32,247 bases of DNA from Balneolaceae bacterium. Lineage in GTDB: Bacteria > Bacteroidota > Rhodothermia > Balneolales > Balneolaceae. The stretch is taken from NCBI GenBank assembly GCA_007123715.1, contig SKKO01000130.1:1-32247 (forward strand). The letters are read 5' to 3'. Both the position numbers and the translations under genes were made by a program. Positions 2 through 31,040 of this stretch are shown here, piece by piece (the stretch's first letter is position 1; each line of letters starts with the position of its first letter). The notes beneath the pieces are model-generated. The model had not been told where the DNA came from. It saw only the letters and a program-made list of their open reading frames with translations, and searched no databases.

Positions 2-1744
2 TCCGCGTCGCCGGTTTTGCCTGCTATAAAGCCTGATCATCATAATGGTTACGATATCTACCCGGCATTTTCGCTCAAAACCGGCAAAATCGAACATGGA
101 TTTGATTCACTGGCAGCATTCATTTCGCAGCAGGATTCAGACAAAATAATTATGGACGGAAATATCGGGACTGACTGGGAATCAGTGATCGGTAATCTGT
201 CAAACGCATTGAAATTAAACAATGCCGAATATCTGTACTTTGATGTGAATTCCGCTTTACTTGCTGAAGATCACATTGATAAAATGATTGAAGGATATCT
301 GGGTGGAGATGACCCTGTATTCGGCAAACTGTACGAAGGCAATCTGGAAGATTTTTTTGACAAAACAAAGCTGGAAATTCTGAAATCGTCAGAAAACCTC
401 AAAACATTCGTCTACGGCACGGGTGCATCTCTTGCCGGAGTGGATTGCCCGGTCTTTTATGTTGACATTCCGAAAAATGAGATACAGTACAGGTCGAGGG
501 CCGGAAGCATTTGCAATATCGGTAAAGCGCATCCTGAAGATCCAAAATCCATGTATAAGCGCTTCTACTTTGTTGACTGGCAGGTTTGCAATCGCCATAA
601 ACAACATCTCCTTCCTGATTTATCTGCTATAGCTGATGGCCAGCGCGACGGGGATCTTAACTGGATGAAAGGAGAAGACCTGAGAGATGGCCTGGAGCAG
701 GCGGCCCAATCGCCCATCAGGGTCAGGCCCTGGTTTGAACCCGGAGTTTGGGGCGGTAAATGGATGCAGGAAAATTTTAACGGACTAAACCCGGATGCGG
801 AAAATTTTGCCTGGTCGTTTGAGCTTATTGCACCCGAAAACGGGGTAATATTTGAAAGTGATGGGAGATTATTGGAAATCGGATTTGAGTGGCTGATGTA
901 TCATTCGGGCCAATCCGTTCTTGGTAAAGATGCCGGCAGATATGGAACATACTTTCCGTTACGGTTCGACTATCTGGATACGATGGGGGGCGGTAACCTG
1001 TCTCTTCAGTGCCATCCGCAGACTGAGTACATACAAAATCATTTCGGAGAAATGATTACCCAGGACGAAACCTACTACATTCTGGATGCAGAGCCGGATG
1101 CCAGGGTTTATCTCGGATTCCGGGAAGGAATCGATCCGGCTGAATTTGAATCAGAATTGAATCGTTCGCATGAAAAGGGTGTATTTTTTGATGCCGATCA
1201 TTATGTTCAGTCATTCCCGGCCTCCAGACACGATCTGTTTCTCATTCCGGCCGGTACCATACACTGTTCAGGGAAAAATAATCTGGTACTGGAAATCAGC
1301 AACACACCCTATATTTACACCTTCAAGATGTACGACTGGCAGAGGCTGGATCTGGACGGGAAACCACGTCCGATCAACATAGACCGTGCAATGGAGAATC
1401 TCGATTTTAGACGCAGCGGCCGGATGGTTTCAGATGAACTGATCAGTAAACCGAAAGTGATTTCAGACAGTAACGACGTACGCATGCTTGACCTTCCGAC
1501 GCATCAAAGTCATCAGTACGGGGTACACAGGCTTGAAATTGTGAGCTCTGTAAAGGTGAATACGGAAGGGAAGTTCCAGGTAATTAATTTGGTTGAAGGT
1601 AAGGCTGTAAAAATTTTAGCCGGCAACAGGCAACTACAGCTGAATTTTGCGGAGACCATGATTATTCCGGCTGCAACAGGGGAATATATGATTGTAAATG
1701 AAGATGACAGCCCGGCCTTTATTATCAAAGCCTTTATGAAATGA
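2..1744 (+). CDS. Long-form class I mannose-6-phosphate isomerase-like protein (5' partial)
   Basis: The reading frame is open from base 2, and the first possible start inside the window is a TTG at base 17, so the true start is probably just upstream. Numbering below counts from that TTG. The C-terminal two thirds is a cupin-type phosphomannose isomerase, a zinc enzyme interconverting mannose-6-phosphate and fructose-6-phosphate in the cytoplasm. Likely zinc ligands are Gln331 and His333 in SLQCHP, Glu351 in QDETYY, and His416 in AGTIHCSG. The first ~190 residues form a separate domain, with GGDDPVFG and VYGTGASL motifs, that is found in ~575-590-residue homologues and is absent from the ~390-residue E. 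coli type. I see no intact P-loop in it. The stop overlaps the next start by 4 nt (ATGA), which implies translational coupling to the sugar porter. The family call is firm. The exact substrate is inferred. Confidence 0.85.
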   Translation, partial: SASPVLPAIKPDHHNGYDIYPAFSLKTGKIEHGFDSLAAFISQQDSDKIIMDGNIGTDWESVIGNLSNALKLNNAEYLYFDVNSALLAEDHIDKMIEGYLGGDDPVFGKLYEGNLEDFFDKTKLEILKSSENLKTFVYGTGASLAGVDCPVFYVDIPKNEIQYRSRAGSICNIGKAHPEDPKSMYKRFYFVDWQVCNRHKQHLLPDLSAIADGQRDGDLNWMKGEDLRDGLEQAAQSPIRVRPWFEPGVWGGKWMQENFNGLNPDAENFAWSFELIAPENGVIFESDGRLLEIGFEWLMYHSGQSVLGKDAGRYGTYFPLRFDYLDTMGGGNLSLQCHPQTEYIQNHFGEMITQDETYYILDAEPDARVYLGFREGIDPAEFESELNRSHEKGVFFDADHYVQSFPASRHDLFLIPAGTIHCSGKNNLVLEISNTPYIYTFKMYDWQRLDLDGKPRPINIDRAMENLDFRRSGRMVSDELISKPKVISDSNDVRMLDLPTHQSHQYGVHRLEIVSSVKVNTEGKFQVINLVEGKAVKILAGNRQLQLNFAETMIIPAATGEYMIVNEDDSPAFIIKAFMK

Positions 1745-3150
1745 ATAAGATCATGAAAAACGGCCATCCGCTATATCTTACTATTATTACCCTGATTGCA
1801 GCCGCAGGTGGTTTTCTGTTTGGTTTTGATATGGCCGTGATCTCCGGAGCTATTACCTTTGTACAGGCACAGTTTGATCTGACAGCCGTACAGGAAGGCT
1901 GGTTCGTTTCTTCTGCATTGATTGGCTGTATTTTGGGGGTGATTGTCTCCGGTGAAATGAGTGATCGTATTGGGAGAAAGCCCGCCTTGATCGCATCTGC
2001 GGCCCTGTTTTTACTTTCTGCGATCGGAACGGCAGCAGCGCCGGGATTTGCACTCCTGGTATCCGCAAGGCTGCTGGGCGGCATGGCTGTCGGGATTGCC
2101 TCTAATGTAGTACCGCTATACATATCGGAAATTGCTCCGGCACATATCCGGGGAAGGCTGGTGACCTGCTATCAGCTTGCTGTAACTGTAGGAATTCTTG
2201 TTGCATATATCTCCAACGCATGGCTGCTGAACCTATCGGAATCAGCTTCAGGCTTTTTGACAGAAGGTTTGTTTGGATTCATTCTTATCGATGAGACCTG
2301 GAGGGCTATGTTTGGAATAGAAGCTCTTCCTGCGATCATATTTTTAACCGGCCTGCTTATTATTCCCGAAAGCCCGCGATGGCTGATGCAAAAAAACAGG
2401 CACAATGAAGCAGAATCTGTACTCACCAAATTTGTTGGCAGCATCGATGCTCAAAAGAGTTTATCGGAAATCAGGGAGACCCTTATGGAAGTACAGGGCT
2501 CGTACAGAGAACTGTTCAAGCCGGGTCTTCGGGTAGCTCTTATGATTGGAATTTTACTACCGGTTTTTTCACAGTTTAGTGGAATCAATGCCATTATTTA
2601 TTATGGTCCTCGGATATTAAATGAGGCGGGGGTTGAGCTGAGTAGTGCCATGCACAGCCAGGTGTTACTCGGTTTTGCAAACATGATCTTTACTTTTATC
2701 GCGGTCTGGAAAGTTGACAGCCTGGGTAGGAGGCCGCTCTATCTTGTTGGAACGGCCGGCGCCATGATTTGTCTCGTTATTACAGGCTATTTTTTCTATA
2801 CCGGTGCCACAGGAAGTGTGTTTCTACTGGTAAGTGTAATAGCCTTCCTGGGTTTTTTCGCGTTTTCAATCGGCCCGCTTAAGTTTGTGATTGCATCCGA
2901 AATATTCCCGAACAGAATCCGGGGACGTGCTCTTGCACTCAGCATCATGGCCATGTGGATTGCTGATACAATTGTTGGCCAGATAACCCCGATTTTACTA
3001 GCTTCCGGCGGGGCTGCTTTTACTTTCTGGTTTTTTGCGTTTTTTTGCGGGATTGCCTTTCTGTTTATCTACAAAGCGGTGCCGGAAACAAAAGGAAAAT
3101 CACTTGAAGAAATTCAGAAAATGTGGATCGAAGTGAAATCGAAATCTTAA
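1741..3150 (+). CDS. MFS sugar porter (sugar:H+ symporter family)
   Basis: This 469-residue inner-membrane transporter has about 12 predicted membrane helices. It carries the full signature set of the MFS sugar porter family (XylE/GalP/GLUT-like): GGFLFGFDMAVISGA at 23-37, DRIGRK at 75-80, PESPRW at 209-214, QFSGINA at 278-284, DSLGRR at 326-331 and PETKG at 448-452. The ATG at 1741 overlaps the upstream stop; a second ATG at 1753 would remove four residues and is a possible alternative. Set between an isomerase and secreted alpha-mannosidases, it most likely imports free mannose released in the periplasm. That substrate is inference from context, since family members carry glucose, xylose, galactose and other monosaccharides. 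Confidence 0.92.
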   Translation: MNKIMKNGHPLYLTIITLIAAAGGFLFGFDMAVISGAITFVQAQFDLTAVQEGWFVSSALIGCILGVIVSGEMSDRIGRKPALIASAALFLLSAIGTAAAPGFALLVSARLLGGMAVGIASNVVPLYISEIAPAHIRGRLVTCYQLAVTVGILVAYISNAWLLNLSESASGFLTEGLFGFILIDETWRAMFGIEALPAIIFLTGLLIIPESPRWLMQKNRHNEAESVLTKFVGSIDAQKSLSEIRETLMEVQGSYRELFKPGLRVALMIGILLPVFSQFSGINAIIYYGPRILNEAGVELSSAMHSQVLLGFANMIFTFIAVWKVDSLGRRPLYLVGTAGAMICLVITGYFFYTGATGSVFLLVSVIAFLGFFAFSIGPLKFVIASEIFPNRIRGRALALSIMAMWIADTIVGQITPILLASGGAAFTFWFFAFFCGIAFLFIYKAVPETKGKSLEEIQKMWIEVKSKS

Positions 3151-3170: not shown

Positions 3171-5534
3171 ATGAAAAAAACGTTCTGTTTGGCAATGATA
3201 CTCTTTCTCGCAGCCGGTGCAGGCGATCCGGTTATGGCACAATCGGGCGGATATAATCAATATGTTGATCCAAATATCGGGTCGGCACATTCGCGATGGT
3301 TTTTTTACACGCCGGCTGCTCAGCCTTTCGGAATGGCCAAGCCGGCTCCTTCAACCAACGGCCAGTATGGGAATCGCTGGGGCTGGGAGGCAGTTGGCTA
3401 TGATCCCCGGCACGAATCGATCGAAGGCTTTGTGAATTTTCATGAATTCCAGATTGGCGGCATCTCGCTCATGGCTGCAACGGGGGAACTTAAAACAACA
3501 GCCGGACTTCTTGAGGAACCGGATAACGGTTACCGGTCACGGTTTTCGAAAGAGACTGAAATAGCCGGGCCGGGTTACTATAGCGTTCATCTTGATGATT
3601 ATGATATTACCGCAGAACTCACATCGACACCGCGGGTAGCCTTTCATCGTTATACCTTCCCGGCATCCGGCCAGTCACACATTATTATCGATGTGGGTAA
3701 CAGGCAGGGAGAAAGTGGGGAAGTGGCTGATGCCTTCGTGCATAAAGTATCAGACAATGAAGTAGAAGGATTTGTGATTACCCTGCCATCGTATGTGAGG
3801 CATTATCAGCCGGGTGGGACCGTGGGAATGTATTTCGTAGCCAGATGGGATAAGAAAGCCAGCAGCTATGGCACTTTTGTTGGAGAAAACCGGAGGCCCG
3901 GAGCATCATCCGTACAGGGCAGGGGCTCCGGAATGTATGTAACATTTGAAACAGAGGAAAATGAATCGGTAACCGTAAAAGTGGGGCTATCCTATACCAG
4001 TATCGAAAATGCCCGATTGAATCTCGAAATCGAAGCTGCAGGCCTTGATTTTGATACAGCACGCCATCAGGCCGAAGAAAAATGGGAAGAAATGCTCGGC
4101 CGTGTTGCCGTGGAAGGGGGCTCCATTGAAAACAGGATCAAGTTTTATACCGGACTCTATCATGCCATTCTTGGCCGGGGGCTGGCAAATGATGTAAACG
4201 GGGCCTACCGGATGAACAACAGTCTGATTGGTGAAATACCTTCCGATGAAGACGGAAAATTGTTATACAATCATTACAATACGGATGCGGTTTGGGGAGC
4301 TTTCTGGAACCTGGGTACTCTGTGGGCTATGGCCTATCCTGATTATCTGAGCGAATTTATCAACACACAGCTTGATGTTTTCAAAGAGAGTGGCTGGCTC
4401 TCGGATGGAATCGCCACATCAAAATACGTTTCCGGGGTAGGTACCAATTTCACCGGGCAGTTTATCGCATCAGCCTGGAACAGGGGTATAAAAGGGATCG
4501 ATCCCGAAACAGCTTGGGAAGCAGTTTATAAAAACGAAATGGGCTGGATGAACCGTCCGTTGGGTGCCGGTAAGGCCGATACAAAAGCATTTATCGAAAA
4601 AGGATATGTGCCCTTTGAATTTGATGATGAACACTATTCAAGCAGTTCGGCAAGGGCATCCCGGTTTTCTGCTTCTCATACCCTTGAATACAGTTTCAGC
4701 GCTTATGCTGCCGCTCAAATGGCAAGACAGCTTGGAAAATCAGATCATTATGCACGGTTTATGGAACTCTCCGAAGGATGGAAACTGCTCTATGATGAGG
4801 AAACGGGGTTTATAAGGCCGCGTGATCTGGACGGAAATTTTCTGGAAAATTTTGACCCTTCCGAACCATGGCGCGGGTTCCAGGAAGGAAATGCCTATCA
4901 GTACACCTTTTATGTACCTCATGATCCTGAGGGTTTGGTTTCTTTGATTGGAGAAGAGGTGTTTAGTGAACGACTGAACAGCCTGTTTGAACGAGCCGAG
5001 GAGGATGGCTTTTCAGGCGGTGAAACCATAGACGCATTTGCCGGGGTAGGAGGGGTTTATAATCATGGAAACCAGCCCAGCTTGCATATCTCATGGCTCT
5101 TTAATTATGCCGGTAAACCATGGCTGACCCAAAACTGGGTACGCAGGATTAGTAACGGGTTTTATGGCACAGATCCCGTTCATGGTTACGGGTACGGACA
5201 GGATGAAGACCAGGGGCAGCTCGGGGCATGGTTCGTACTGGCCGGTTTGGGATTGTTTGATGTAGCCGGCGGCAGCAGTTATGAACCAACACTGCAGGTA
5301 GCATTGCCTATGTTCGATCGCATAACTATCCAGCTTCATCCGGAACACTATCCCGGAAAGGAATTTGTGATTTCTGTTGAAGGTGACCCAACCGAACATT
5401 ACTTCATCGAATCGGCAAGCCTGAACGGACAAGCACTGGAGTCATTTTATTTTCCGTGGCAAACATTTATCAACGGTGGGCACCTTCATTTTATGAGTTC
5501 TGACGAGCCGGTGAATGTTGGAGTCACACATTAA
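3171..5534 (+). CDS. Secreted GH92 alpha-mannosidase
   Basis: This 787-residue protein has a type I signal peptide (MKKTFCLAMILFLAAGA..., likely cut after Ala23). The mature part starts with the GH92 N-terminal beta-domain (YVDPNIG at 31-37, later DNGYRSRF and YDITAELT) and continues into the (alpha/alpha)6 catalytic domain. GH92 enzymes are calcium-dependent inverting exo-alpha-mannosidases. The probable general acid is Glu572 in QEGNAYQ. The catalytic base region is Asp678-Glu679-Asp680 in QDEDQGQ. Length is normal for the family. Where many GH92 proteins read GNEP, this one reads GNQP (Gln635), so its linkage preference may not be alpha-1,2. It starts 20 bp after the porter stop and is probably co-transcribed with it. 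GH92 membership is secure. The linkage is unknown. Confidence 0.93.
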   Translation: MKKTFCLAMILFLAAGAGDPVMAQSGGYNQYVDPNIGSAHSRWFFYTPAAQPFGMAKPAPSTNGQYGNRWGWEAVGYDPRHESIEGFVNFHEFQIGGISLMAATGELKTTAGLLEEPDNGYRSRFSKETEIAGPGYYSVHLDDYDITAELTSTPRVAFHRYTFPASGQSHIIIDVGNRQGESGEVADAFVHKVSDNEVEGFVITLPSYVRHYQPGGTVGMYFVARWDKKASSYGTFVGENRRPGASSVQGRGSGMYVTFETEENESVTVKVGLSYTSIENARLNLEIEAAGLDFDTARHQAEEKWEEMLGRVAVEGGSIENRIKFYTGLYHAILGRGLANDVNGAYRMNNSLIGEIPSDEDGKLLYNHYNTDAVWGAFWNLGTLWAMAYPDYLSEFINTQLDVFKESGWLSDGIATSKYVSGVGTNFTGQFIASAWNRGIKGIDPETAWEAVYKNEMGWMNRPLGAGKADTKAFIEKGYVPFEFDDEHYSSSSARASRFSASHTLEYSFSAYAAAQMARQLGKSDHYARFMELSEGWKLLYDEETGFIRPRDLDGNFLENFDPSEPWRGFQEGNAYQYTFYVPHDPEGLVSLIGEEVFSERLNSLFERAEEDGFSGGETIDAFAGVGGVYNHGNQPSLHISWLFNYAGKPWLTQNWVRRISNGFYGTDPVHGYGYGQDEDQGQLGAWFVLAGLGLFDVAGGSSYEPTLQVALPMFDRITIQLHPEHYPGKEFVISVEGDPTEHYFIESASLNGQALESFYFPWQTFINGGHLHFMSSDEPVNVGVTH

Positions 5535-5561
5535 TTTTCTTTGAATAAAAATCAATACACC

Positions 5562-6845
5562 ATGAAACGATTAAACTATTTCATATTCCCGCTTATCATA
5601 TTACTTTCATGTTCTGCTGATCAGAATAACAGTGGACTGTTTGAACAGATTCAGAACGACCCAAATATTCCTGTTGTAAAACAGAAAGCTCTCGAAATCA
5701 TATCAACCGGATTTAATGCCGGCGACAGCTATTCAGAAGTATGGATTCGTGATTATAACACCTTTATTGAGCCTGCAATGGAAGTTCATGACCATGAGGT
5801 GATTAAAGAGAACCTTCGCATCTTCTTCAGGTTCCAGGCAGAGGATGGGGGAATTGTGGATGGTTTCAGACCATTTGTTGAAGGGGCGGGAGGTTATGAT
5901 TATATCTACACCGATCTCGAACCCGATTTGATGGCCCATAAAAATACGGTGGAAACCGATCACGAGTCTTCCCTTATTCAAACGGTTTATAAATATATTA
6001 AAAGGTCGGGCGATACCACGTTTCTGGATGAGGTAATTGACGGTATCACAATCGCTGACAGATTGTTGCTGGCCGTTGATTTCCTGATGGAACACCGAAT
6101 GAGCCAGGAATACGGTCTTATATGGGGCGCCACAACCGCCGACTGGGGTGATGTGCAGCCCGAACATGAATGGGGTGTATATTTAACCGAAGATACCCAC
6201 TATGCTGTAGAAGTTTATGATAATGCCATGTTCGTGATAGCCTTGCAGAATCTTGCCGAACTCTTGCCAGATTATGGGGACTTCCTGGGTGATATTCATG
6301 ATTTGATTTCTGCCAATATCATGGCCCATCTGTGGGATGAGGAAAATCGGCAGTTTGTGCCACACCGCTATCTTGACGGATCTCCTTTTCCTGACGATTT
6401 TAATGAGGATGAAATTTATCAGCATGGGGGTACGGCAGTTGCCATCGAAGCCGGATTACTAACCCGTGATCAGGTCTATGAAGCGTTGCAGCGCATGCGC
6501 GCGAATGTAGTGGCTGCAAATGCCGCTACCATCGGCTTAACCCTCTACCCTCCATATCCTGAAGGATTTTTCCTCAATCCGGGGATGTACCCTTACGGTT
6601 ATCAGAATGGCGGCGACTGGACATGGTTTGGCGGGCGCATGATACAACAACTGATCCGATACGGCTTTGTAGAAGAAGCGTATGAAGAAGCACGGCCCAT
6701 GTTCGATAGGGTAATTGAAAATGATGGGTTTTACGAATGGTACACCCCAGCGAATGAACCCATGGGGTCAGGCACATTCAGAGGATCGGCCGGGGTACTT
6801 TTTACCGCCATCGAAATGTTCGAAGAATGGGCTGAAAACCAGTAA
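5562..6845 (+). CDS. Lipoprotein, (alpha/alpha)6 six-hairpin glycosidase-like
   Basis: The 427-residue product begins MKRLNYFIFPLIILLSC, a lipoprotein signal with lipobox LLSC and lipidated Cys17. A TTG 21 nt upstream is in frame, but the ATG gives the better signal peptide. The body is helical, with paired motifs typical of six-hairpin glycosidases: EVWIRDYNTF at 59-68 (compare the W-x-R-D motif of debranching-enzyme and GH63/GH100-like families), ETDHESSL at 131-138, and a striking GATTADWGDVQ at 189-199. I cannot assign it to a numbered GH family. Candidate acids are Asp64, Asp133, Glu135, Asp194 and Asp197. It lies between two GH92 genes (27 bp after one, 23 bp before the other), so a role in trimming the same alpha-mannoside, or a cap on it, is likely by context. 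It could instead be an inactive binding protein. Confidence 0.72.
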   Translation: MKRLNYFIFPLIILLSCSADQNNSGLFEQIQNDPNIPVVKQKALEIISTGFNAGDSYSEVWIRDYNTFIEPAMEVHDHEVIKENLRIFFRFQAEDGGIVDGFRPFVEGAGGYDYIYTDLEPDLMAHKNTVETDHESSLIQTVYKYIKRSGDTTFLDEVIDGITIADRLLLAVDFLMEHRMSQEYGLIWGATTADWGDVQPEHEWGVYLTEDTHYAVEVYDNAMFVIALQNLAELLPDYGDFLGDIHDLISANIMAHLWDEENRQFVPHRYLDGSPFPDDFNEDEIYQHGGTAVAIEAGLLTRDQVYEALQRMRANVVAANAATIGLTLYPPYPEGFFLNPGMYPYGYQNGGDWTWFGGRMIQQLIRYGFVEEAYEEARPMFDRVIENDGFYEWYTPANEPMGSGTFRGSAGVLFTAIEMFEEWAENQ

Positions 6846-6868: not shown

Positions 6869-9800
6869 ATGAGAATCCTCAAAAATACAGTACTACTATA
6901 TATTTTGATGACCATTCCTGCTTTTCTTTATGCTTTAAATAGTGATAGAAATATATCTGAGGAGCTTGTAGAAAATGAAATTAAAATGATTTGGAGTATC
7001 GGGGAGAAAGATGGGTCAGCTAATGAATTTGCTCTTGCCCCGGATGGATTTGAAGATTTCAAGTATCAGGATTTTGGATTCGAGGATAAATTTTTTGTAG
7101 TTGGTTTTCACGATGTAAAGGAAGAAATCCCCTATGTTTTGCCGGGTCCGGTTGATACCTGGGGAGGCACATGGTCAACTTCAGGTTGGCGCAGTAACCA
7201 GATAACGATTCTGTTTTCTGTAGATGAGCTGCCAGATAACGGCGAATATACACTGTACATTGAGCTTGCGGATTTTGCGAAAGAATTTTTGCCTCTGATG
7301 AAAGTTTACATAAACAACCAGGAGCAGCGAATTGAACTTGAGGCGGAGGGATATGACCGGAAGTCTCAACGTTCGCCTTCGAAAACGGAACCCTTTGTAA
7401 GTGAAAATGCATTGCAAGGAGATGCTTCCGATGCCACTCCAATTACTGTTTCCATACCGGTTGAAGAGAATATTATCCAAAAAAACGGGAACAGGGTGAC
7501 GATAACGGTTTTGGAAGGGTCATGGATTATGTTTGATCAGATACGCCTTGAAGGACCGGAATTAACAATCCGGCAGTCAGAGCGGCTTTTTATAAGAGAA
7601 TCGCATCCGGCAGATTATCAGCTCGAAACAGAACAAGGCAATGTCCAGCCATTATTAATAAATGTTGAACACCTTACAGGAGAACCGGTTTTACGTGTAG
7701 AGCTGGATAGAGAACCCATTTTTGAAGAAACCGTGGAGATGGGGCAGTACGATTTTGAAGCTCCCATGCCGGCAGTATCTGAACCGGTTACGAGTGAATA
7801 CAGGATTGTAGTTGATAACAAAGTTATTGAATCGGGTACGGTTGAACGTTCACCGCAAAAAATCCAAAACCTTCCTGGTTATGTTGATACACGTATGGGT
7901 GCCGCTCATGCAAGGTGGATGTATACCCCGGGGCCATGGATGCCATTCAGTATGGTAAAATTGAGTCCCATTAACCAAAATTCAGGATGGCAGGCCGGAT
8001 ATGATTCGATTTTTGAAAGTATCGGGACTTTCAGCCATATTCACGAATGGACGATGGCAGGCCTTGGGATATTTCCAACAAACGGCCCCCTGCAAACTCA
8101 AATTGGTGATGAGTTAAATCCGGATTCCGGCTATCGCTCACGGATCGATAAAAAAAGCGAGGAAGCCCCCATCGGGTATTACAAAGCTCACCTGACTGAT
8201 TATGACATCACAGCAGAACTGACAGCAACGACAAGAAGCGGCCTGCTGAGATTTACCTTTCCCGAAGAACGCGACAGTGCGCGTGTGCTGATTGATCTCC
8301 ATATTCCTGCTGAGTACGATTATGTACTGAAGGAAGTTGATGTAAGAAAAGTTTCAGACCACAGGCTGGAGGGTTATTCCGATCAGTATTCGGGAGGTGT
8401 CTGGAGCCAGGATGCAGATCAGGATTATACCGTTCATTTTGTGATAGAGTTCGATCAGCCGATACTTTCAATGGGAGGTTGGGTTGAGGATGAGTTGTTT
8501 GAGGGTGAACATCTTTATGCAAAAGATATCAAAGACGCCGGCCTGATTGTCTATTTTGATCAAAAAGAGAATGCTGTTGTGCAGATTCGCACGGGAATCA
8601 GTCTGGTGAGCATTGAAAACGCTTCTGAGAATCTAAAAACCGAGATGAGCGAGCCATTTGGCTGGGATTTTGATGCAGTGAGGCAAAACCAGGTGGACAC
8701 GTGGAGCGAGCTAATGGGCAGAGTACTCATCAGCACAAACAACCGGCTGGAAAAAAAGAGGTTTTATAACACGGTTTATCGATCCATCAGCAGCCGTAAT
8801 ACCTGGAGTGATGTGAATGGCGAGTGGCGCGGAACAGATGGAACTGTTCACCGGCTGATGAATCCGGATCATGTTGCACTGGGATGTGATGCTTTTTGGA
8901 ATACATTCTGGAACCTGAACCAGATGTGGAACCTGATAACACCGGAATGGAGCAGCCGGTGGGTGAATTCCCAGTTGGCCATGTACGATGCCTACGGATG
9001 GCTTGCCAAGGGGCCGGCCGGAATGAATTTTGTTCCGGTGATGGTTGCTGAGCATGAAATTCCTCTGATTGTAGGAGCCTATCAGATGGGAATCCGGGAT
9101 TTTGATGCCGAAAAAGCCCTGGAAGCAGCCGTAAAAATGCAGACGACTCCTGCTCAAAAAGTTCATAATGGATTTGCAGGGAACAGAGACCTTGAAGCCT
9201 ATCTTCAGTATCAATATGTTCCATACGATCTCGGCCGGTTTTCTAACAGTTTGGAGTATTCATTTGATGACTGGACCGTTGGCCAGTTTGGAAAAGCGCT
9301 CGGAGACAGGGATGTCTATGAGATGTTTAATGATAGGGGTTACTGGTGGAAAAATGCCATTTCAGATACAGGGTTTGCCCACATGAGAGACAGCGATGGA
9401 AATTGGCTCGAAGATTTCGACCCTTTTGAATCCGGAGCAAACCGTCACTATGTTGAAGGAAATGCCTGGCAGCTCACCCATTTTGTTCCGCAGGATGTAC
9501 CCGCTCTCATTGAGTATGTCGGAAAAAGCAGGTTTATCGAAAACCTGGAATGGGGCTTTGAAACCAGTTATTCACAACGGTTCAATGCCTTGAACGACCA
9601 ATACTGGGAAATTGCTGTGGACCAGGGAAATCAGCAGTCGATGCAGTTTGCATTTCTTTTTAACTGGGCGGGTAAACCGTGGCTGACACAAAAATGGAGT
9701 CGTGCTGTTATGGACAAATTTTACGGTTTTGGAGTTGAAAATGCCTACCTGGGTGATGAAGACCAGGGGCAGCTGAGTGCATGGTTTGTGATGGCGGCCA

Positions 9801-10096
9801 TCGGACTATTTCAGACTGACGGTGGCACGCGTGTAAACCCAATCTATGAAATTGCAAGCCCGTTATATGAAAGAGTGGAAATTAATTTGGGCGGAAGGTA
9901 CAACCGCGGTGAAATATTTGTGATTGAGGCTAAAAACGCATCGAGAAAAAACAAATATGTGCAAAGTGCAATGCTAAACGGTACAGAATTATCAACGTTT
10001 TATTTCGATGCTTATGAGTTGCTGAATGGAGGAGAGCTTATTCTTGAAATGGGGCCTGAGCCAAATAAAAACTGGGGGCTCATGAATCATGATTGA
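6869..10096 (+). CDS. Secreted GH92 alpha-mannosidase with N-terminal PL4-like beta-sandwich
   Basis: This is a 1075-residue exported enzyme (signal peptide MRILKNTVLLYILMTIPAFLYA). Residues ~25-235 resemble the carbohydrate-binding-like third domain of PL4 rhamnogalacturonan lyases: a WGGTW region, then strands, then the ending GSWIMFDQIRLEGPE. A further ~100-residue beta-rich linker follows. The GH92 module starts near residue 338 (YVDTRMGAAHARW) and runs to the end. The likely general acid is Glu863 in VEGNAWQ, and the base region is Asp963-Glu964-Asp965 in GDEDQGQ. Where others read GNEP it reads GNQQ (Gln922). Most GH92 proteins are about 750 residues, so the extra ~310 residues are an added module rather than a frame artefact. 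It follows the lipoprotein glycosidase by 23 bp. The GH92 call is secure. The PL4-like domain is a by-eye match. Confidence 0.9.
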   Translation: MRILKNTVLLYILMTIPAFLYALNSDRNISEELVENEIKMIWSIGEKDGSANEFALAPDGFEDFKYQDFGFEDKFFVVGFHDVKEEIPYVLPGPVDTWGGTWSTSGWRSNQITILFSVDELPDNGEYTLYIELADFAKEFLPLMKVYINNQEQRIELEAEGYDRKSQRSPSKTEPFVSENALQGDASDATPITVSIPVEENIIQKNGNRVTITVLEGSWIMFDQIRLEGPELTIRQSERLFIRESHPADYQLETEQGNVQPLLINVEHLTGEPVLRVELDREPIFEETVEMGQYDFEAPMPAVSEPVTSEYRIVVDNKVIESGTVERSPQKIQNLPGYVDTRMGAAHARWMYTPGPWMPFSMVKLSPINQNSGWQAGYDSIFESIGTFSHIHEWTMAGLGIFPTNGPLQTQIGDELNPDSGYRSRIDKKSEEAPIGYYKAHLTDYDITAELTATTRSGLLRFTFPEERDSARVLIDLHIPAEYDYVLKEVDVRKVSDHRLEGYSDQYSGGVWSQDADQDYTVHFVIEFDQPILSMGGWVEDELFEGEHLYAKDIKDAGLIVYFDQKENAVVQIRTGISLVSIENASENLKTEMSEPFGWDFDAVRQNQVDTWSELMGRVLISTNNRLEKKRFYNTVYRSISSRNTWSDVNGEWRGTDGTVHRLMNPDHVALGCDAFWNTFWNLNQMWNLITPEWSSRWVNSQLAMYDAYGWLAKGPAGMNFVPVMVAEHEIPLIVGAYQMGIRDFDAEKALEAAVKMQTTPAQKVHNGFAGNRDLEAYLQYQYVPYDLGRFSNSLEYSFDDWTVGQFGKALGDRDVYEMFNDRGYWWKNAISDTGFAHMRDSDGNWLEDFDPFESGANRHYVEGNAWQLTHFVPQDVPALIEYVGKSRFIENLEWGFETSYSQRFNALNDQYWEIAVDQGNQQSMQFAFLFNWAGKPWLTQKWSRAVMDKFYGFGVENAYLGDEDQGQLSAWFVMAAIGLFQTDGGTRVNPIYEIASPLYERVEINLGGRYNRGEIFVIEAKNASRKNKYVQSAMLNGTELSTFYFDAYELLNGGELILEMGPEPNKNWGLMNHD

Positions 10097-10148
10097 AATT
10101 TTGCCTCAGATTATTCCAGTAAAATTACTAAAAGCAAAAAAATTTAAG

Positions 10149-13100
10149 ATGAAAATCACCGGAATTATTCTGTTATTCTTAATCTTGCCGGTTTTTCTAT
10201 TTGCCGAAAATGGTTTAGAGATTAAATCAGATGTGAAGACTGCATATTTTGTTGATGTTGATGATTTGCTGTTGTCCGGCTACAGCCAAAAGATCAGCGG
10301 TACCGATTTTTTCTACCGAACGGCCATACCCGGGTTTAGGGAGACAATGATTGTACGGGCAACAGATGGCAACTGGTCGATGGAATGGGAGACAGACACG
10401 GTGCCGGAACAGATCGAAACAGATTATGTCTCTTTTGTGTGGGCCGCAAACCTGGATGCAACCGACCGGCCGGTGCCTATGACTCTTACCTTAAATGGGC
10501 ATCAAGAAGTCCGGTTTTATTTAACACGCGACAGGGAATGGAAAGTGCAAAACGAGGCAGGTACCTCTCTTTGGTTTATGGAAAATATTACTGATCCGAA
10601 TGAAGATTATTACGGATTTATGGTTTTGCAGGTACCTGCAGAAAACCTTGTTCCGGGAGAGCCTCTAAGGCTTAAAGTTACCGGGGGACGGGAACAATCA
10701 AATGCCTGGTATATGACTGTGAAAACACCGGTCAGAGAGCAAATGAGTGTGTATTCTGATCCGGCACTTTTCATGGAAAGTGGAAAGATGTTTCAGCCCC
10801 TTACAATCGATCTTATCTATTTGGGCAATCCGGGTAATGCTTTTCTTAAAATTGGTGCAGAGATTGAAAAAGAAGTCAATCTGATATTTGGATACAACAG
10901 ATTTACAGCCAGGAGCCCGCAGGTGAATATAGATACACCTGCTGAAGCTGTACTGGAGGCTGCTGGCCGAAAAATTGTGACGGAGGCACTTATCAAGCCT
11001 GTGAGAAGATGGAAAATGCATTTTGTGCAAAATACCCACACTGATATTGGATATACACGCCCTCAGACAGAAATTATGAGCGATCTGATCCGCCATCTCG
11101 ACCTGGCGCTGGATTATGCAGATGAAACGGATCATTTTCCTGATGATTCCAGGTTCCGGTGGACAGCCGAAAACACGTGGGCCGTTGATCAGTTCCTGAA
11201 AAACAGAACAGCTGAACAAATTGACCGGCTCAGGCGAAGGGTAGAAGAGGGAAGAATTGAGCTGACCGGGATGTACCTGAACTTTGATGAGTTGCCTGAT
11301 GAACAGTCACTTGCAAGGTCTCTTGAACCCATTGACCGGATTCGTTCTCACGGTTTTGAGATTCAGGCAGCCATGCAGAATGACGTGAATGGCATAGGCT
11401 GGGCATTTAGTGATTATTTCTCTTCTCTGGGTGTAAAATATCTGAATATGGGTACACACGGGCATAAAGCACTCATCGCATTTGATTACCCAACGGCGTT
11501 TTGGTGGGAATCACCCTCGGGTAACCGGATGCTTGCATTTCGTGCCGAGCACTATCATACAGGAAATACCCGTTTTCACATCAGCCGGGAAGATTTTGAC
11601 TATTTCGAGAAAGAGCTGCTTTCGTACTTGAATGAATTGGCGGACCGCGGCTATCCTCATGACGTGATGATGATTCAGCATTCCGGCTACCTTACAGATA
11701 ATTCACCCCCATCCATTCGCCCTGCTGAAATGATCCGGAAATGGAATGAAAAATATGAATGGCCAAAACTTCGCCTGTCAGTCATCAGCGATTTCTTTGA
11801 GGAAATTGAAGAGCTTCATGCCGGGGAACTGCCGGTTTATCGTGCTGCATGGCCCGACTGGTGGGTAGACGGATTCGGGTCGGGAGCCAGGGAGGTGGGG
11901 GCCACACGACAAGCCCATATGGATATCATAGCCGGGCAGGGACTCTTAAGCATGGCCCGGTTGCTGGGCCATGAACTGCCCGAGCACTCCGAACAGCAAA
12001 TGGCTTTGTCGAATGATGCTCTTCTGTTTTACGGCGAACATACATTTGGCTCCCATGCCAGTGTGAGTGATCCCTACGGCAAAGGTACCAAGGAAATGAG
12101 GCGTTTAAAAGAATCGTTTGCATGGGAAGCTTCAAGGCGAACAAAACTTGTTCAGGAGGATGCATTTGGATTACTTCAGTCGCATTTTACGAATCTTGAT
12201 AAAACCAGCATCGTTATATACAACACAACACTGCGAATCCGAAGCGGTATTTCACGAATATTTATTGATCACGAAACGGTACCGCGGGGTACACACATTC
12301 AGCTACGTGATGATAAAGGCCGGATACATCCTGCACAATTACTTGAAAATATTCACGGCGGTTCCTACTGGGCACTTCGGGTTGGTGAAATTCCGTCATT
12401 CGGGTTCAGGCAGTTTATTTTGGAACAAGTAGAGGATGGAATAAACCGATCTCTTCAGCCTGCCGGGCAACAGATATTTGAAAATGAATGGTACCGCCTT
12501 GAAATTGATCCGGGGCGGGGTGTTGTTACCGGTTTATTTGATAAAGAACTGGAAAAAGAGCTGACTGATGGAAATGCAGCGTGGGGATTTGGTCAATTCA
12601 TATATGAACGTCTTGGAAACCGCGTAGAATTGGATCAGTATTACCTTGAAACCTACGACCGGTATCCTTTGGAATCAGTCCGGTTTGATGGTTACCAAAA
12701 AGGAGATATCTGGGATACAATCCGATTTACCGGCAATACGATAGCTGCCATTGGCGATGATGGTTTCAGCCTGGAAATCAAGATGCATCATGCCGACAAG
12801 CAGCTTGATTTTACCTACAACATCCGGAAAAAACCGGTTATAGATCCCGAGAGTATCTATGTCTCCTTTCCTTTTGCTCTTGATGGCGGAGAAATCTTTT
12901 TTGATGTGCCGGGAGGTATGATACAGGCTGGAATACATCAGATTCCGGGCTCATCGAATGACTGGAATATGGTGCAAAATGTTGCCGTGGTCAGGAATCA
13001 TGACGCTCAAATCATTTTGAGCAGCCATGAAGCCCCGCTCATGCAAATGGGGAATATCAATACAGGAAGGTTTAATGCAGGCGCTGTCCCGGATTTCCCG

Positions 13101-13550
13101 CATATCTATGGATGGCCGATGAATAACTATTGGGTAACCAATTTTAATGCCGATCAAAAAGGAGAATTCGAATGGACGTATAACATCACTTCCGGCAATA
13201 GTGTGAATAACAGTGACGCGATGATATTTGCAATGAATAACCGTCAGATTCTTGTGTCAAGACTTATTGCCGGGATGTCTGGCAGTGATGCGGTGCCGGT
13301 TAACAGGTCATTGCTTGATGTATTTCCGGACCATATTCATGTTGTCACTGTAAAACCAAAGGAAAATGGCAAAATACTGTTTCACTTGCGTGAAACGGAT
13401 GGAAGGCACACAACCATCCAGTCGTTGTTTGGTGATGAGATAACTGTATGGGAAACAGATGTGAACGGAAACAGGATTTATCCACATCCTGTTCAATCGG
13501 GCGAATTTCAACCTTATGAAGTCAGGTTTTTTGAGGTTGAGGTGAAATGA
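10149..13550 (+). CDS. Secreted GH38-type alpha-mannosidase
   Basis: I chose the ATG at 10149 because it gives a clean signal peptide (MKITGIILLFLILPVFLFA). The in-frame ATG at 10089 would put 20 extra residues in front and overlap the upstream gene. The product is 1133 residues. Residues ~20-290 form a beta-rich N-terminal region of unknown role. The GH38 catalytic domain follows: metal ligands His297 and Asp299 in THTDIGY, the probable nucleophile Asp412 in QNDVNG, and His631 in YGEHTFGSHA. The C-terminal half (~750-1133) is the usual GH38 beta-sandwich region. GH38 enzymes are retaining, zinc-dependent alpha-mannosidases. Many bacterial ones are cytoplasmic, so export here is notable. It is the last gene of the cluster and is followed by a 122-bp gap containing a possible promoter. 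Linkage specificity cannot be read from the sequence. Confidence 0.88.
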   Translation: MKITGIILLFLILPVFLFAENGLEIKSDVKTAYFVDVDDLLLSGYSQKISGTDFFYRTAIPGFRETMIVRATDGNWSMEWETDTVPEQIETDYVSFVWAANLDATDRPVPMTLTLNGHQEVRFYLTRDREWKVQNEAGTSLWFMENITDPNEDYYGFMVLQVPAENLVPGEPLRLKVTGGREQSNAWYMTVKTPVREQMSVYSDPALFMESGKMFQPLTIDLIYLGNPGNAFLKIGAEIEKEVNLIFGYNRFTARSPQVNIDTPAEAVLEAAGRKIVTEALIKPVRRWKMHFVQNTHTDIGYTRPQTEIMSDLIRHLDLALDYADETDHFPDDSRFRWTAENTWAVDQFLKNRTAEQIDRLRRRVEEGRIELTGMYLNFDELPDEQSLARSLEPIDRIRSHGFEIQAAMQNDVNGIGWAFSDYFSSLGVKYLNMGTHGHKALIAFDYPTAFWWESPSGNRMLAFRAEHYHTGNTRFHISREDFDYFEKELLSYLNELADRGYPHDVMMIQHSGYLTDNSPPSIRPAEMIRKWNEKYEWPKLRLSVISDFFEEIEELHAGELPVYRAAWPDWWVDGFGSGAREVGATRQAHMDIIAGQGLLSMARLLGHELPEHSEQQMALSNDALLFYGEHTFGSHASVSDPYGKGTKEMRRLKESFAWEASRRTKLVQEDAFGLLQSHFTNLDKTSIVIYNTTLRIRSGISRIFIDHETVPRGTHIQLRDDKGRIHPAQLLENIHGGSYWALRVGEIPSFGFRQFILEQVEDGINRSLQPAGQQIFENEWYRLEIDPGRGVVTGLFDKELEKELTDGNAAWGFGQFIYERLGNRVELDQYYLETYDRYPLESVRFDGYQKGDIWDTIRFTGNTIAAIGDDGFSLEIKMHHADKQLDFTYNIRKKPVIDPESIYVSFPFALDGGEIFFDVPGGMIQAGIHQIPGSSNDWNMVQNVAVVRNHDAQIILSSHEAPLMQMGNINTGRFNAGAVPDFPHIYGWPMNNYWVTNFNADQKGEFEWTYNITSGNSVNNSDAMIFAMNNRQILVSRLIAGMSGSDAVPVNRSLLDVFPDHIHVVTVKPKENGKILFHLRETDGRHTTIQSLFGDEITVWETDVNGNRIYPHPVQSGEFQPYEVRFFEVEVK

Positions 13551-13672: not shown

Positions 13673-14590
13673 ATGTTGTTGGCAACTCACATATTTAATA
13701 ACAGGGATCGGATCACCATCATGATAATAATGATGCTACTGATCCCGGCGTGTACAGATTTATCCGGTACAGAAGATGCAGATACAAGAGTAATCGACTA
13801 CCAATGGCCCCGCGAATATTACCAGGCGGTATGGGGCAGCTCGCCTGATGATATATTTGTGGTTGGATCAAATGCAACCATTGTACACTACAATGGTGAA
13901 GAATGGAGGGTCATGGAAAATCCGGCGACCCTGAGGTTAAATGGTGTTTGGGGCAGTTCAGCAGACAATGTCTTCGCCGTTGGGGAAGGTGGTCAGATAA
14001 TTCATTACGATGGGAGCCAATGGACAGAATCCCCGGCCCATATTACAAGCAGGCTTCAGGATATATGGGGAACAGCTCCCAATCATATTTTTGCAGTTGG
14101 TGCCGCCGGAACCGTACTCTTTTTTAACGGAGATTTCTGGACCAGGGTCGACACCCCGATAAGCGATGAGATTTACAGTATTTGGGGCACCTCGGCAGAA
14201 AATATTTATGCTGTTTCTTCAGGTGGTAGCGTGCTCAAATATAATGGCAATGAATGGAAGGTGATCACGAGCGGATGGCCCACCTTTTTTAAAATATGGG
14301 GCACTTCCGATCAGAATATTTTTGCAGTCGGTTCCGGTGGAACCGTCGTTCATTACGACGGTATCGAATGGCAAAAAATGCTGAGTTCTACAGATAAAGG
14401 ATTATATGGCGTGTGGGGAAACTCCCCTGATAATATAACGGCAGTAGGTATTGAGGGCACAATTGTTCAGTACAACGGAAAAGACTGGCGGAAACAAGTC
14501 AGTATTACCCCCGAAAATTATACAGATATCTGGGGTATGAGAGAAACCGTAATTCTTGTCGGCGGATTTGGTACTATAATAAAACAGTGA
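13673..14590 (+). CDS. Beta-propeller lipoprotein with seven WG-type repeats
   Basis: The 305-residue product has a lipoprotein signal: a charged NNRDR stretch, then ITIMIIMMLLIPAC, with lipidated Cys27. An internal ATG at 13721 keeps the lipobox but loses the positive charge, so I kept 13673, which also has AGG-rich sequence in front. The rest is six full repeats of about 38-40 residues plus a partial seventh, following the pattern (V/I)WG(S/T)S..NIFAVG..GTI.HY(D/N)G..W. Repeat starts are spaced evenly. Seven units suggest a seven-bladed propeller facing the periplasm or the cell surface. Such repeats occur in secreted proteins of unknown function and may bind ligands or partners. It is probably a separate transcription unit after the mannosidase cluster. 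Its function is unknown. Confidence 0.85.
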   Translation: MLLATHIFNNRDRITIMIIMMLLIPACTDLSGTEDADTRVIDYQWPREYYQAVWGSSPDDIFVVGSNATIVHYNGEEWRVMENPATLRLNGVWGSSADNVFAVGEGGQIIHYDGSQWTESPAHITSRLQDIWGTAPNHIFAVGAAGTVLFFNGDFWTRVDTPISDEIYSIWGTSAENIYAVSSGGSVLKYNGNEWKVITSGWPTFFKIWGTSDQNIFAVGSGGTVVHYDGIEWQKMLSSTDKGLYGVWGNSPDNITAVGIEGTIVQYNGKDWRKQVSITPENYTDIWGMRETVILVGGFGTIIKQ

Positions 14591-14860: not shown

Positions 14861-15901
14861 ATGCCATTGAAAATAATACTGATGCCATCCATTTTTGTTT
14901 TACTATTCCTATCCTGCCAGGAAGCTGAACATGAACAACGAATTATGACTGTAAATGGCGCCATTTTTTCTTCCGATTTGGGTGTTACACTGATTCATGA
15001 GCATGTGCTTGTGGATTGGATCGGTGCAGACAGTACCGGCTACCACCGCTGGGACCGTGCGGACGTTGCAGAGCGGGTACTTCCCTATTTAATGGAGGCT
15101 GCCGGGCGCGGTGTGGATGCCATAGGTGAATTTACGCCTGCCTATCTTGGCAGGGACCCTTTTATTCTGCTTGAACTCTCACGGCGTACCGGTATGTACT
15201 TGATAACAAATACCGGGTTCTATGGGGCGGTGGATAACCGGTTTATACCTGCTTATGCATACGATGAAACCTCAGCGGAAATCGCGGCACGCTGGATTGA
15301 TGAATTTCACAATGGAATTGACGGAAGCGGAGTGCGCCCCGGTTTTATGAAAATTTCTGTGGCAGAACACAGTGAACTTTCTCCTTTGCACCAGAAAATA
15401 GTTGAAGCGGCTGCCATGACTCATATTGAGACGGGAATGACTATTTTCTCACATACTATTGGTGATATTCCCGCTTTGGCACAAATTGAATTGTTGGAGC
15501 AGCTGGGGCTGAAACCTTCGTCATGGGTCTGGACTCATGCCCAAACCGGTACAATAGAAGCGAATATAAGGCTGGCGGAAAAAGGAGCATGGATTTCACT
15601 TGATAACGTCATGTTCGATCCGTCTCGTGATGAAGGCCAAGAAGGCAGTATTGACTGGTATAAGGATCGAATTATTGCTTTACGTGACGCCGGACATCTT
15701 AACAAAATACTGATTTCACATGATGCCGGCTGGTATGATGTTGGTGAGCCGAATGGCGGGGGTTATCGCGGATATACGGACATTTTTGACTTTCTCATAT
15801 CACGGCTTTTAGAGAGTGGTTTAACGGATGAAGAAATCGAACAATTGCTTGTTAAAAACCCTGCTAATGTGTTCAGCCTGAGGATAAGAAGTGCCAAATA
15901 G
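14861..15901 (+). CDS. Phosphotriesterase-family amidohydrolase, lipoprotein
   Basis: The 346-residue product starts with a lipoprotein signal (MPLKIILMPSIFVLLFLSC, lipidated Cys19). The mature protein is a TIM-barrel metal hydrolase of the phosphotriesterase family. All expected metal-site positions are visible: His46 and His48 in LIHEH, the carbamylated Lys164 in GFMKIS, His198 in FSHTIG, His226 in WTHAQTG, and Asp288 in SHDAG. Family members hydrolyse organophosphates, lactones or unknown esters, and the native substrate here cannot be told. A lipid-anchored form implies action in the periplasm or at the surface, unlike the soluble cytoplasmic homologue of E. coli. It stands alone between a 270-bp and a 335-bp gap. 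Confidence 0.9.
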   Translation: MPLKIILMPSIFVLLFLSCQEAEHEQRIMTVNGAIFSSDLGVTLIHEHVLVDWIGADSTGYHRWDRADVAERVLPYLMEAAGRGVDAIGEFTPAYLGRDPFILLELSRRTGMYLITNTGFYGAVDNRFIPAYAYDETSAEIAARWIDEFHNGIDGSGVRPGFMKISVAEHSELSPLHQKIVEAAAMTHIETGMTIFSHTIGDIPALAQIELLEQLGLKPSSWVWTHAQTGTIEANIRLAEKGAWISLDNVMFDPSRDEGQEGSIDWYKDRIIALRDAGHLNKILISHDAGWYDVGEPNGGGYRGYTDIFDFLISRLLESGLTDEEIEQLLVKNPANVFSLRIRSAK

Positions 15902-16236
15902 ATAGAAAGTTTTTCCCCGTTTATTTCCATACTTATGTGGCAAAAGTGAAAATTCGTCTGCCGGGCAAGATTTGTTCACCTGATTTGTACACTTAAAAAA
16001 GATGGGTTTTAGTCGTATTAATTGCATACAAAAAGATTGCTCAACAATTCAGTATAGGAGCGAAATAATTTTAAAAAAAAATACCAAAAATTCATCACAA
16101 ATTAACAAATAATTCAGGATAAATTTGTCCAAAATATTGTAAAAAACGCCGTTTATAATCAAAAAAAACGCGTTTTTGATGAGAGTTTTTTTATTTTGCC
16201 TGTATGTAAAATTTTTAACTGAGAGGGGACAAATTT
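15902..16236 (+). other. Intergenic leader region of the DASS symporter
   Basis: These 335 bp hold no supported gene. The second half is very A/T-rich and contains a perfect -7-like TAAATTTG at 16120-16127 (without a clear -33 TTTG at the right distance), two CG-centred palindromes just downstream, and a good ribosome binding site GAGAGGGG at about 16221-16228. Confidence 0.5.
16144..16177. promoter_or_regulatory. Two operator-like palindromes upstream of the DASS symporter
   Basis: Site 1 is AAACG-C-CGTTT at 16144-16154. Site 2 is AAAAACGCGTTTTT at 16164-16177. Both are perfect inverted repeats with a CG-rich core flanked by A and T runs, and their centres are ~21.5 bp (about two helical turns) apart. 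They lie just downstream of the TAAATTTG element and 60-93 bp before the ATG, where a repressor would block transcription. CG-centred palindromes are typical of LacI-type operators, but no such regulator is in the window. Confidence 0.45.
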
Positions 16237-17706
16237 ATGTCAGACGAATCATTACGCGACTACTTTTCGCGCCCGAGAATCGGGCTTTTTTTAGGTCCTG
16301 TAATTTTTGCCATCATGATAGCCGTACCAACGCCACAGGCGCTTGAACCGGCAGCATGGAATGTGGCAGCTGTAGGAATATTAATGGCAATATGGTGGGT
16401 TACAGAAGCAATTCCGATACCCGCGACGGCACTTTTACCCATTGTACTTTTTCCGGTTATGGATGTGGGCTCGATTGCTTCAGCCACACAGCCATTCGCA
16501 AACCCGCTTATCTATCTATTTATGGGTGGGTTTATTATCGCATTGGCGATGGAACGTACCAATTTGCACAAACGCATTGCCCTAAACATCGTAATGCTGG
16601 TAGGAACAAAGCCAAAATCGATTATCATAGGCTTTATGATTTCTGCAGGTTTTCTAAGTATGTGGGTAAGCAATACGGCAACAGCCATGATGATGCTGCC
16701 GATAGCGCTGTCTATAATTGGCCTTGTTGAAACAACCGAGGACATGGAGGGTGCCGATCTGCAAACTAATTTTGCAATAGTGATGCTTCTGGGATTGGCA
16801 TACGCCTGTAATATTGGTGGAATCGCAACATTGATCGGAACACCCCCGAACGCGTTGATGGCTGGTTATATGCTCGAAACATACGGTGTGGATATTGGGT
16901 TTGGCCAATGGATGATGGTTGGATTGCCTCTTGTCATCGTTTCACTGCCACTGGTATATGTAATGCTAACCCGATTGGTATTCCCGATTAAACTGAAAAT
17001 TATCCCGGGCGGTTACGGCCTCATAAAGGAACAACTTGAGAAATCAGGAAAAATGTCACGCCCGGAAAAAATGGTTGCCACTGTATTTGTAATGACCGCA
17101 ACTCTATGGGTTACAAGGCCATTACTTGAACCCTATATCCCAAATATTTCGGATACAGGAATCGCGATATTTGGCGCTTTATTGATGTTTTTGTTGCCGG
17201 TCAACTTTAAAAGACTCCGGTTTGTTCTTACATGGGAAGATGCGAAACAGTTGCCCTGGGAAGTTCTCATCCTTTTCGGTGGTGGTCTTAGCCTGGCAGC
17301 CGCAATTACTTCTACGGGCCTTGCAGAGTGGATTGGTCAATCTCTACAGATACTCGATTTTCTGCCGATTATCCTTCTTGTGACGCTTTCGCTTCTGGTG
17401 ATCATTTTCCTCACTGAAGTAACAAGTAACACAGCCACCGCTGCTGCATTCCTGCCTATTCTCGCATCTGTAGCCATTGCAATGGGGTACGATCCGTTAC
17501 TGTTGGTTATTCCTGCAGCCATAGGTGCAAGCTGTGCATTTATGCTGCCGGTAGCTACTCCTCCAAATGCAATCGTATTTGGAAGCGGACTTGTTACGAT
17601 CCCTCAAATGGCAAGAGCAGGCTTTATCTTTAACCTCGCTATGGTTGTTGTGATCACAGGGGTTCTATATCTGCTGGTAGGCTATGTATTTGGAGTGACT
17701 ATTTGA
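16237..17706 (+). CDS. DASS/SLC13-family sodium:anion symporter
   Basis: This 489-residue inner-membrane protein has about 11-12 hydrophobic segments and the twin inverted-repeat signature of the divalent anion:Na+ symporter family: SNTATA at 145-150 and SNTATA again from Ser397, each followed by a conserved LPI stretch, plus LIGTPPNAL and CAFMLPVATPPNAIVFGSG. These Ser-Asn-Thr loops bind sodium and the carboxylate in the bacterial homologue VcINDY. The usual substrates are succinate, malate, fumarate or citrate; sulfate and phosphate relatives exist. The ATG at 16237 is preceded by GAGAGGGG at a normal distance, the clearest Shine-Dalgarno site in the window. It is transcribed alone, converging with the GntR gene 27 bp downstream. 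Confidence 0.92.
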   Translation: MSDESLRDYFSRPRIGLFLGPVIFAIMIAVPTPQALEPAAWNVAAVGILMAIWWVTEAIPIPATALLPIVLFPVMDVGSIASATQPFANPLIYLFMGGFIIALAMERTNLHKRIALNIVMLVGTKPKSIIIGFMISAGFLSMWVSNTATAMMMLPIALSIIGLVETTEDMEGADLQTNFAIVMLLGLAYACNIGGIATLIGTPPNALMAGYMLETYGVDIGFGQWMMVGLPLVIVSLPLVYVMLTRLVFPIKLKIIPGGYGLIKEQLEKSGKMSRPEKMVATVFVMTATLWVTRPLLEPYIPNISDTGIAIFGALLMFLLPVNFKRLRFVLTWEDAKQLPWEVLILFGGGLSLAAAITSTGLAEWIGQSLQILDFLPIILLVTLSLLVIIFLTEVTSNTATAAAFLPILASVAIAMGYDPLLLVIPAAIGASCAFMLPVATPPNAIVFGSGLVTIPQMARAGFIFNLAMVVVITGVLYLLVGYVFGVTI

Positions 17707-30464: not shown

Positions 30465-31040
30465 ATGAGAATTTTTTGGCAAATAATAAATCTTATATTT
30501 TTACTGACCGTGGTTTTTGCTTGTTCCGACAATGTAAATAATGCATCAGGCCCTGATGAAATATTTGGCTACATATCAGTAACTGTCACCGGTGCGATTG
30601 ATGCAGTGCACGAATGCGACAACAATGCCAGTTGTGTGGTGAGTTTCGGTGAGGTAGTAACTGAAATAGGAAGTACAACGATCTATACATGGGGGATTGA
30701 AGCTGGAGATTATACCACGTTCCTGCCATTTAGTATTAATACGACATCCTTAAATTCGCCTGTCAGCAGGCCGGCACCCGGTACATATACCATTGGTTCA
30801 GGAACGGCCCCATCGTTTGAAGCCGGTTACAGCAATATCGAAGGCGGATTGAATGATGATTTTAGTTTTGAAACCACAGAAAGCGTAGGCGGTTCACTGG
30901 TCATTGAAACATCCACCAGTGATCGGGTAACCGGCAGTTTTGAATTTAATGCCATTCACATTGATGAAGGCGACAACAGAACGGTTACGATTACAGGAAC
31001 TTTTGAGGCGGTGAGTGAGGATCTGTTAGCCGGCTTGTAA
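30465..31040 (+). CDS. Lipoprotein of unknown function, paralogue of the gene at 31447
   Basis: The 191-residue product has a lipoprotein signal (MRIFWQIINLIFLLTVVFAC, Cys20) followed by SDNVNNASGPD. The mature part looks all-beta with Ser/Thr-rich strands. It shares three blocks with the protein at 31447: SDN.ASGPD after the Cys, SRPAPG.Y.IGS in the middle, and GG.L.IE.S..DRV.G.FEF.A near the end. Two cysteines (ECDNNASC) may form a disulfide. The family is unknown to me. It is likely a small beta-sandwich on the cell envelope, and no enzymatic residues stand out. Confidence 0.8.
   Translation: MRIFWQIINLIFLLTVVFACSDNVNNASGPDEIFGYISVTVTGAIDAVHECDNNASCVVSFGEVVTEIGSTTIYTWGIEAGDYTTFLPFSINTTSLNSPVSRPAPGTYTIGSGTAPSFEAGYSNIEGGLNDDFSFETTESVGGSLVIETSTSDRVTGSFEFNAIHIDEGDNRTVTITGTFEAVSEDLLAGL

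Follow-up and report, generated by a model that had tools for sequence, protein, structure and literature searches.

What does a small lipoprotein do that is encoded between two α-mannosidase genes in a Balneolaceae bacterium? The gene occupies positions 5562 to 6845 on the forward strand of the window, which is the whole 32,247-nucleotide stretch of DNA analysed and at the same time one whole contig of a draft genome. A preliminary description had called its product a six-hairpin glycosidase that fits no nameable glycoside hydrolase (GH) family, and had proposed that it acts on a cap or side chain. On the same strand the gene is preceded by the C-terminal part of a mannose-6-phosphate isomerase (PMI; 2-1744, weak NCBIfam manA match, PDB 1qwr E 2.2e-14), whose reading frame runs off the contig start, an MFS sugar porter (1741-3150, Pfam and NCBIfam profile matches), and a GH92 exo-α-mannosidase of 787 residues (3171-5534, Pfam E 1.5e-125, nearest solved chain 6f8z_A at E 1.8e-82). 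It is followed by a second GH92 exo-α-mannosidase of 1075 residues with an N-terminal CBM-like domain (6869-10096, Pfam E 3.8e-124) and by a GH38 α-mannosidase (10089-13550, Pfam E 3.3e-31). Because the gaps on the 5' and 3' sides of the gene are 27 and 23 bases, respectively, and the second GH92 gene and the GH38 gene overlap by 8 bases, the run from PMI to GH38 looks like one operon. Two of the three GH92 genes in the 3.9-Mb genome are those flanking the gene. The same gene order, preceded by a GntR regulator, is found in the closest named relative locus, L010 of Balneolaceae bacterium DLM2.Bin24 (92% identity). About 230 N-terminal residues of the PMI in the window match nothing in Pfam or PDB, and this long form of PMI is kept in most homologous loci.

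The open reading frame starts with an ATG at 5562, ends with the stop codon at 6843-6845 and encodes 427 residues; an in-frame TTG at 5541 is a possible earlier start that would add seven residues. The lipobox LLSC with Cys17 (codon 5610-5612), whose cysteine 84 of 89 homologues share, marks the predicted protein as exported and membrane-anchored. The sequence motifs on which the glycosidase assignment had been based are all present, with EVWIRDYNTF beginning at residue 59, ETDHESSL at residue 131, and GATTADWGDVQ at residue 189. An AlphaFold2 model built with 89 sequences (pLDDT 92.3) agrees with this assignment: the protein is predicted to be spanned by a lone (α/α)6 barrel of twelve helices, as in the six-hairpin superfamily; the barrel begins near residue 35 and is not preceded by a β-sandwich domain. 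Near the top of the 50 matches listed by VIA-align are GH94 phosphorylases (3qde_A, Z 34.6, rmsd 2.8, 365 residues aligned) tied with GH100 invertases (6ttj_J, Z 34.4, rmsd 3.3, 349 aligned), and the GH63 mannosylglycerate hydrolase (4wva_A, Z 31.9, rmsd 3.1, 337 aligned), all at 15-18% identity. GH125 is absent among the 50 matches listed, which excludes nothing. Since the six-hairpin superfamily includes enzymes for many different sugars, its fold leaves the specificity unfixed.

The gene neighbourhood was compared in 81 loci, namely the window and 80 others. GH92 is encoded in 69 of these loci, PMI in 61, a ROK kinase in 53, an MFS porter in 49, and a GntR regulator in 48, while the main GH38 cluster is represented in nine and L083 holds a further GH38 outside that cluster. 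The closest upstream gene is a GH92 gene on the same strand in 54 cases and the closest downstream gene encodes PMI in 35. The neighbours of the gene are a mannose module, and the constant company with mannosidases noted earlier is borne out by the larger sample; around the gene in L043 no mannose genes are recognised. Some loci in addition encode GH2 (of glucosaminidase or β-mannosidase type), GH3 and GH20 enzymes, GH99-like proteins together with sulfatases, or a weakly GH76-like protein, and because of these extra genes the loci point to N-glycans and α-mannans as substrates. In L036 (1666-12511) the gene is surrounded by a protein with a T9SS tail and weak similarity to GH99, another GH99-like protein as well as three sulfatases, with no GH92 gene. 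This is possibly a sulfated-mannan locus and resembles the loci for diatom α-1,3-mannan. The neighbours of the gene in L072 are similar in size to those in L036. The endo C6-sulfate α-1,3-mannanase GH195 also acts with GH92 and sulfatases on mannan (PMC13063451), but it is related to GH99 and unrelated to the barrel described here, and identity with GH195 was therefore rejected.

We consider it somewhat more probable than the opposite that the gene represents a six-hairpin family new to Pfam and NCBIfam, whose members are exported, exo-acting inverting glycoside hydrolases with mannose as the likely product, that is, exo-α-mannosidases. Hydrolysis, inversion, exo action and mannose specificity are properties that we infer. 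The enzyme would trim α-mannosides alongside GH92 and GH38 on substrates of N-glycan or mannan type, and the mannose released would be imported through the MFS porter, phosphorylated by the ROK kinase and then isomerised to fructose-6-phosphate. However, GH92 enzymes already free mannose in most of the loci, and operon content alone therefore cannot tell the product of this enzyme. In some loci mannose-use genes persist without GH92. PMI without GH92 is found in L015, L058 and L085, all of which encode GH38, and in L019, L021 and L049, although such loci are few and L021 and L049 are short contigs. In L019 the order is GntR, ROK, MFS, the gene and PMI, followed by FecR and SusC, and neither GH92 nor GH38 is encoded within about 10 kb. 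Because the genes for mannose use are retained in L015, L019, L021, L058 and L085, these loci suggest that the enzyme itself frees mannose.

The same loci bear on the main rival, which is the role originally proposed. An inverting exo-glycosidase could clear the way for GH92 and GH38 by taking off a cap or side chain other than mannose, such as α-glucose from high-mannose glycans or galactose from fungal mannan. Such caps exist, and Bacteroides thetaiotaomicron uncaps α-galactose-capped mannan with a GH97 enzyme (PMC10154615). The fold is common to GH63 and GDE-type α-glucosidases, and the gene shares an operon with GH92 in most loci. But PMI is still present where GH92 is missing, L019 encodes no other mannosidase of GH92 or GH38 within about 10 kb, and no second sugar pathway recurs across the loci read. 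We therefore favour cap removal less than mannose release and regard it as rather unlikely. Of the preliminary proposal, the candidate new glycosidase family is in keeping with the fold, the conserved canonical acids and the linkage to mannosidases, whereas the part concerning the cap has lost ground.

Does the protein nevertheless belong to a family already described? A genome scan revealed at least 525 relatives. Of the 80 best, all but one are from Bacteroidota or Balneolota, and the exception comes from a bin labelled Thalassobius that may be mis-binned. The family is widespread but not common, since strong matches were obtained in only four of the 394 sampled genomes of the phylum. The protein itself has no match above the cut-offs in Pfam or NCBIfam, its best Pfam score being 20.9 bits to PF17167 (GH94 superfamily), for which the cut-off is 27. 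Among the 89 members, matches at E 0.01 or better are found to PF17167 in 50, to PF22422 in 13, to GDE_C in ten, and to Bac_rhamnosid6H in five. Ten homologues, picked partly for their high scores, were scanned separately, and eight of these score 30-39 bits for PF17167, above its cut-off; for GDE_C the second copy in L011 also passes, at 22.3 bits, and the L036 protein lies at the limit. Given this pattern across the 89 members and the ten homologues, the family is anchored by profile similarity in the six-hairpin superfamily, nearest GH94, but is a clean member of none of the listed families. The earlier statement that no family can be assigned thus holds as far as Pfam and NCBIfam are concerned, where this protein has no strong match to an existing GH family, but must be qualified: by these comparisons the catalytic domain of the GH94 superfamily is a distant homologue of the protein, and PF17167 is passed by some members of the family. 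It is accordingly a candidate new family set against Pfam and NCBIfam only. In the library searched, we found nothing published on the family or on the operon.

In profile-profile comparison with hhalign the best score was obtained with a set of MGH1-like proteins (E 7e-6), followed by the GH94 set (E 0.004), both scores being modest as the MGH and GH94 sets are shallow (Neff about 2.4). The first could mean that the enzyme hydrolyses small α-mannoside solutes in the manner of the GH63 mannosylglycerate and glucosylglycerate hydrolases (MGH/GgH). These share the size, the barrel and the base motif GFYE(Y/W), with which GFYEW of the protein is aligned by hhalign. Mannose and glycerate would both be usable products, and MgH enzymes provide a precedent for the chemistry, being inverting hydrolases of an α-mannoside (PMC6608630). 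However, the motifs ESGxDN and YWRGPxW of these solute enzymes are absent, the identity is 15-16%, and PF22422, the profile for this type, matches 13 of the 89 members weakly and the window protein not even at 0.1. In addition, the usual partners of the gene are mannosidases that trim polymers or glycans, with GH99-like proteins and sulfatases in some loci. A solute hydrolase is therefore improbable. GH100, the neutral/alkaline invertases, is likewise a lone (α/α)6 barrel of similar size and shares the motifs NGG-W and NDxFxE(Y/W)Y including the base glutamate, but it differs in the acid-loop motif, PF12899 matches none of the 89 members at E 0.01, and its members are sucrose enzymes, not exported lipoproteins encoded among mannose genes.

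Slightly more improbable still is a phosphorylase distantly related to GH94, or a branch of GH94 that has been truncated. The GH94 superfamily is the best Pfam relation and GH94 barrels lead the fold list. Moreover, the cellobiose and chitobiose phosphorylases share with the family the ADWxD acid motif, the R-D pair for sugar binding and the NGG motif. Asp197 corresponds to the catalytic aspartate of their ADWND. But the identity is 16-17%, and the window protein is exported, has no extra domains and lacks the N-terminal β-sandwich. The phosphate-binding histidine of ENGGxxTH (His666 in CgCBP; residue roles and numbers from PMC5501786) is absent, its place being taken by Trp355 (codon 6624-6626), which is invariant in all 89 sequences. 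In addition, an extra glutamate is invariant at the position where the hydrolases GH100 and MGH have their base. This is Glu392 in FYEWY (codon 6735-6737), which aligns with Glu414 of InvA (GH100; PMC6995568) and with the glutamate of GFYEY in MGH-type proteins, to which by motif the base Glu419 of MhGgH (PMC6608630) corresponds. The putative general acid is Asp197 in ADWGD (codon 6150-6152), invariant as well and aligned with Asp492 of VpChBP and Asp490 of CgCBP.

In inverting six-hairpin enzymes of the GH15-like kind the acid is located in the α5-α6 loop and the base in the α11-α12 loop. According to the model Asp197 and Glu392 lie in exactly these loops and would thus occupy the canonical places. 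These placements, and the replacement of the phosphate-binding histidine by Trp355, speak for an inverting hydrolase and against a phosphorylase. In the proposed mechanism Asp197 would protonate the glycosidic oxygen while Glu392 would activate water, and the -1 site would be built by Trp61, Arg63 and Asp64, Trp195, and Asn349-Gly-Gly-Asp352. By motif, Arg63-Asp64 correspond to the sugar-binding pair Arg367-Asp368 of the GH94 enzyme CgCBP, Trp195 to Trp488, and Asn349 to Asn660 (PMC5501786); Asp64 (codon 5751-5753, motif W-x-R-D) is invariant in the 89 sequences. The same is true for the three acids of the acidic patch E131-T-D133-H-E135 (5952-5966). The enzyme would work like an inverting exo-glycosidase of the GH63 or GH100 kind on a GH94-like barrel, and it falls in none of the families tested. 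The least probable reading is an inactive binding or scaffold protein that has retained the barrel. Although enzymatic activity is a prediction, ten aspartate and glutamate positions are invariant across the diverse set of 89 sequences, and conservation is among the highest in the motifs proposed to be catalytic.

Three families of exo-α-mannosidases have so far been characterised for the breakdown of high-mannose N-glycans, namely GH38, GH92 and GH125 (PMC10154615). The exo-α-1,6-mannosidase GH125 resembles the present family in having an (α/α)6 barrel of similar size with a W-x-R-D motif and in acting alongside GH92 when mannan and N-glycans are degraded. In contrast, PF06824 (GH125) matches none of the 89 members, hhalign against a GH125 set gave no useful alignment, and the GH125 profile has no match among the open reading frames of the 84 loci read, although GH125 coexists in many genomes. 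Of 44 carrier genomes, 27 also encode GH125, and the idea that the enzyme generally takes the place of this α-1,6-mannosidase was therefore rejected. The four carriers in the genus of the window lack GH125.

A second copy of the gene, about 50% identical, is present in the same cluster in eight loci of alignment A2, L011 (14782-16074), L017, L023, L024, L027, L033, L035 and L040, and in two genomes of the genus of the window. In a quick tree the eight A2 copies are placed on one side of a supported branch (SH-aLRT 99, with caution for L017 because of its long branch), and this separate branch suggests that the paralogous copies represent two specificities. As a more tentative proposal, to which we give somewhat less than even chances, the genes could constitute a new GH family of inverting exo-α-mannosidases with a lone GH94-like barrel, widespread in environmental Bacteroidota and Balneolota, which would be the fourth bacterial kind beside GH38, GH92 and GH125 and would include a second clade cutting a different linkage. 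If true, this fourth kind of exo-α-mannosidase would be encoded beside genes for mannose use in hundreds of Bacteroidota, marine, soil-dwelling and anaerobic, and would fill a gap in the recycling of high-mannose glycans and α-mannans. The homologues would be spared mislabelling as GH94 phosphorylases, and a small single-domain tool enzyme would be gained.

Some further genes of the window were seen in passing. The protein encoded at 13673-14590 is secreted and, with its repeated pattern W-G-x-S-x-x-N-I-x-A-V-G, is probably a β-propeller. At 14861-17706 a phosphotriesterase-family lipoprotein is followed by a multi-pass membrane protein resembling a transporter, and the operon in L010 is also trailed by two proteins matching the lengths of this pair. 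Two small lipoproteins at 30465-31040 and 31447-32040 have the motif S-R-P-A-P-G-x-Y-x-I-G-S in common and are apparently paralogous.
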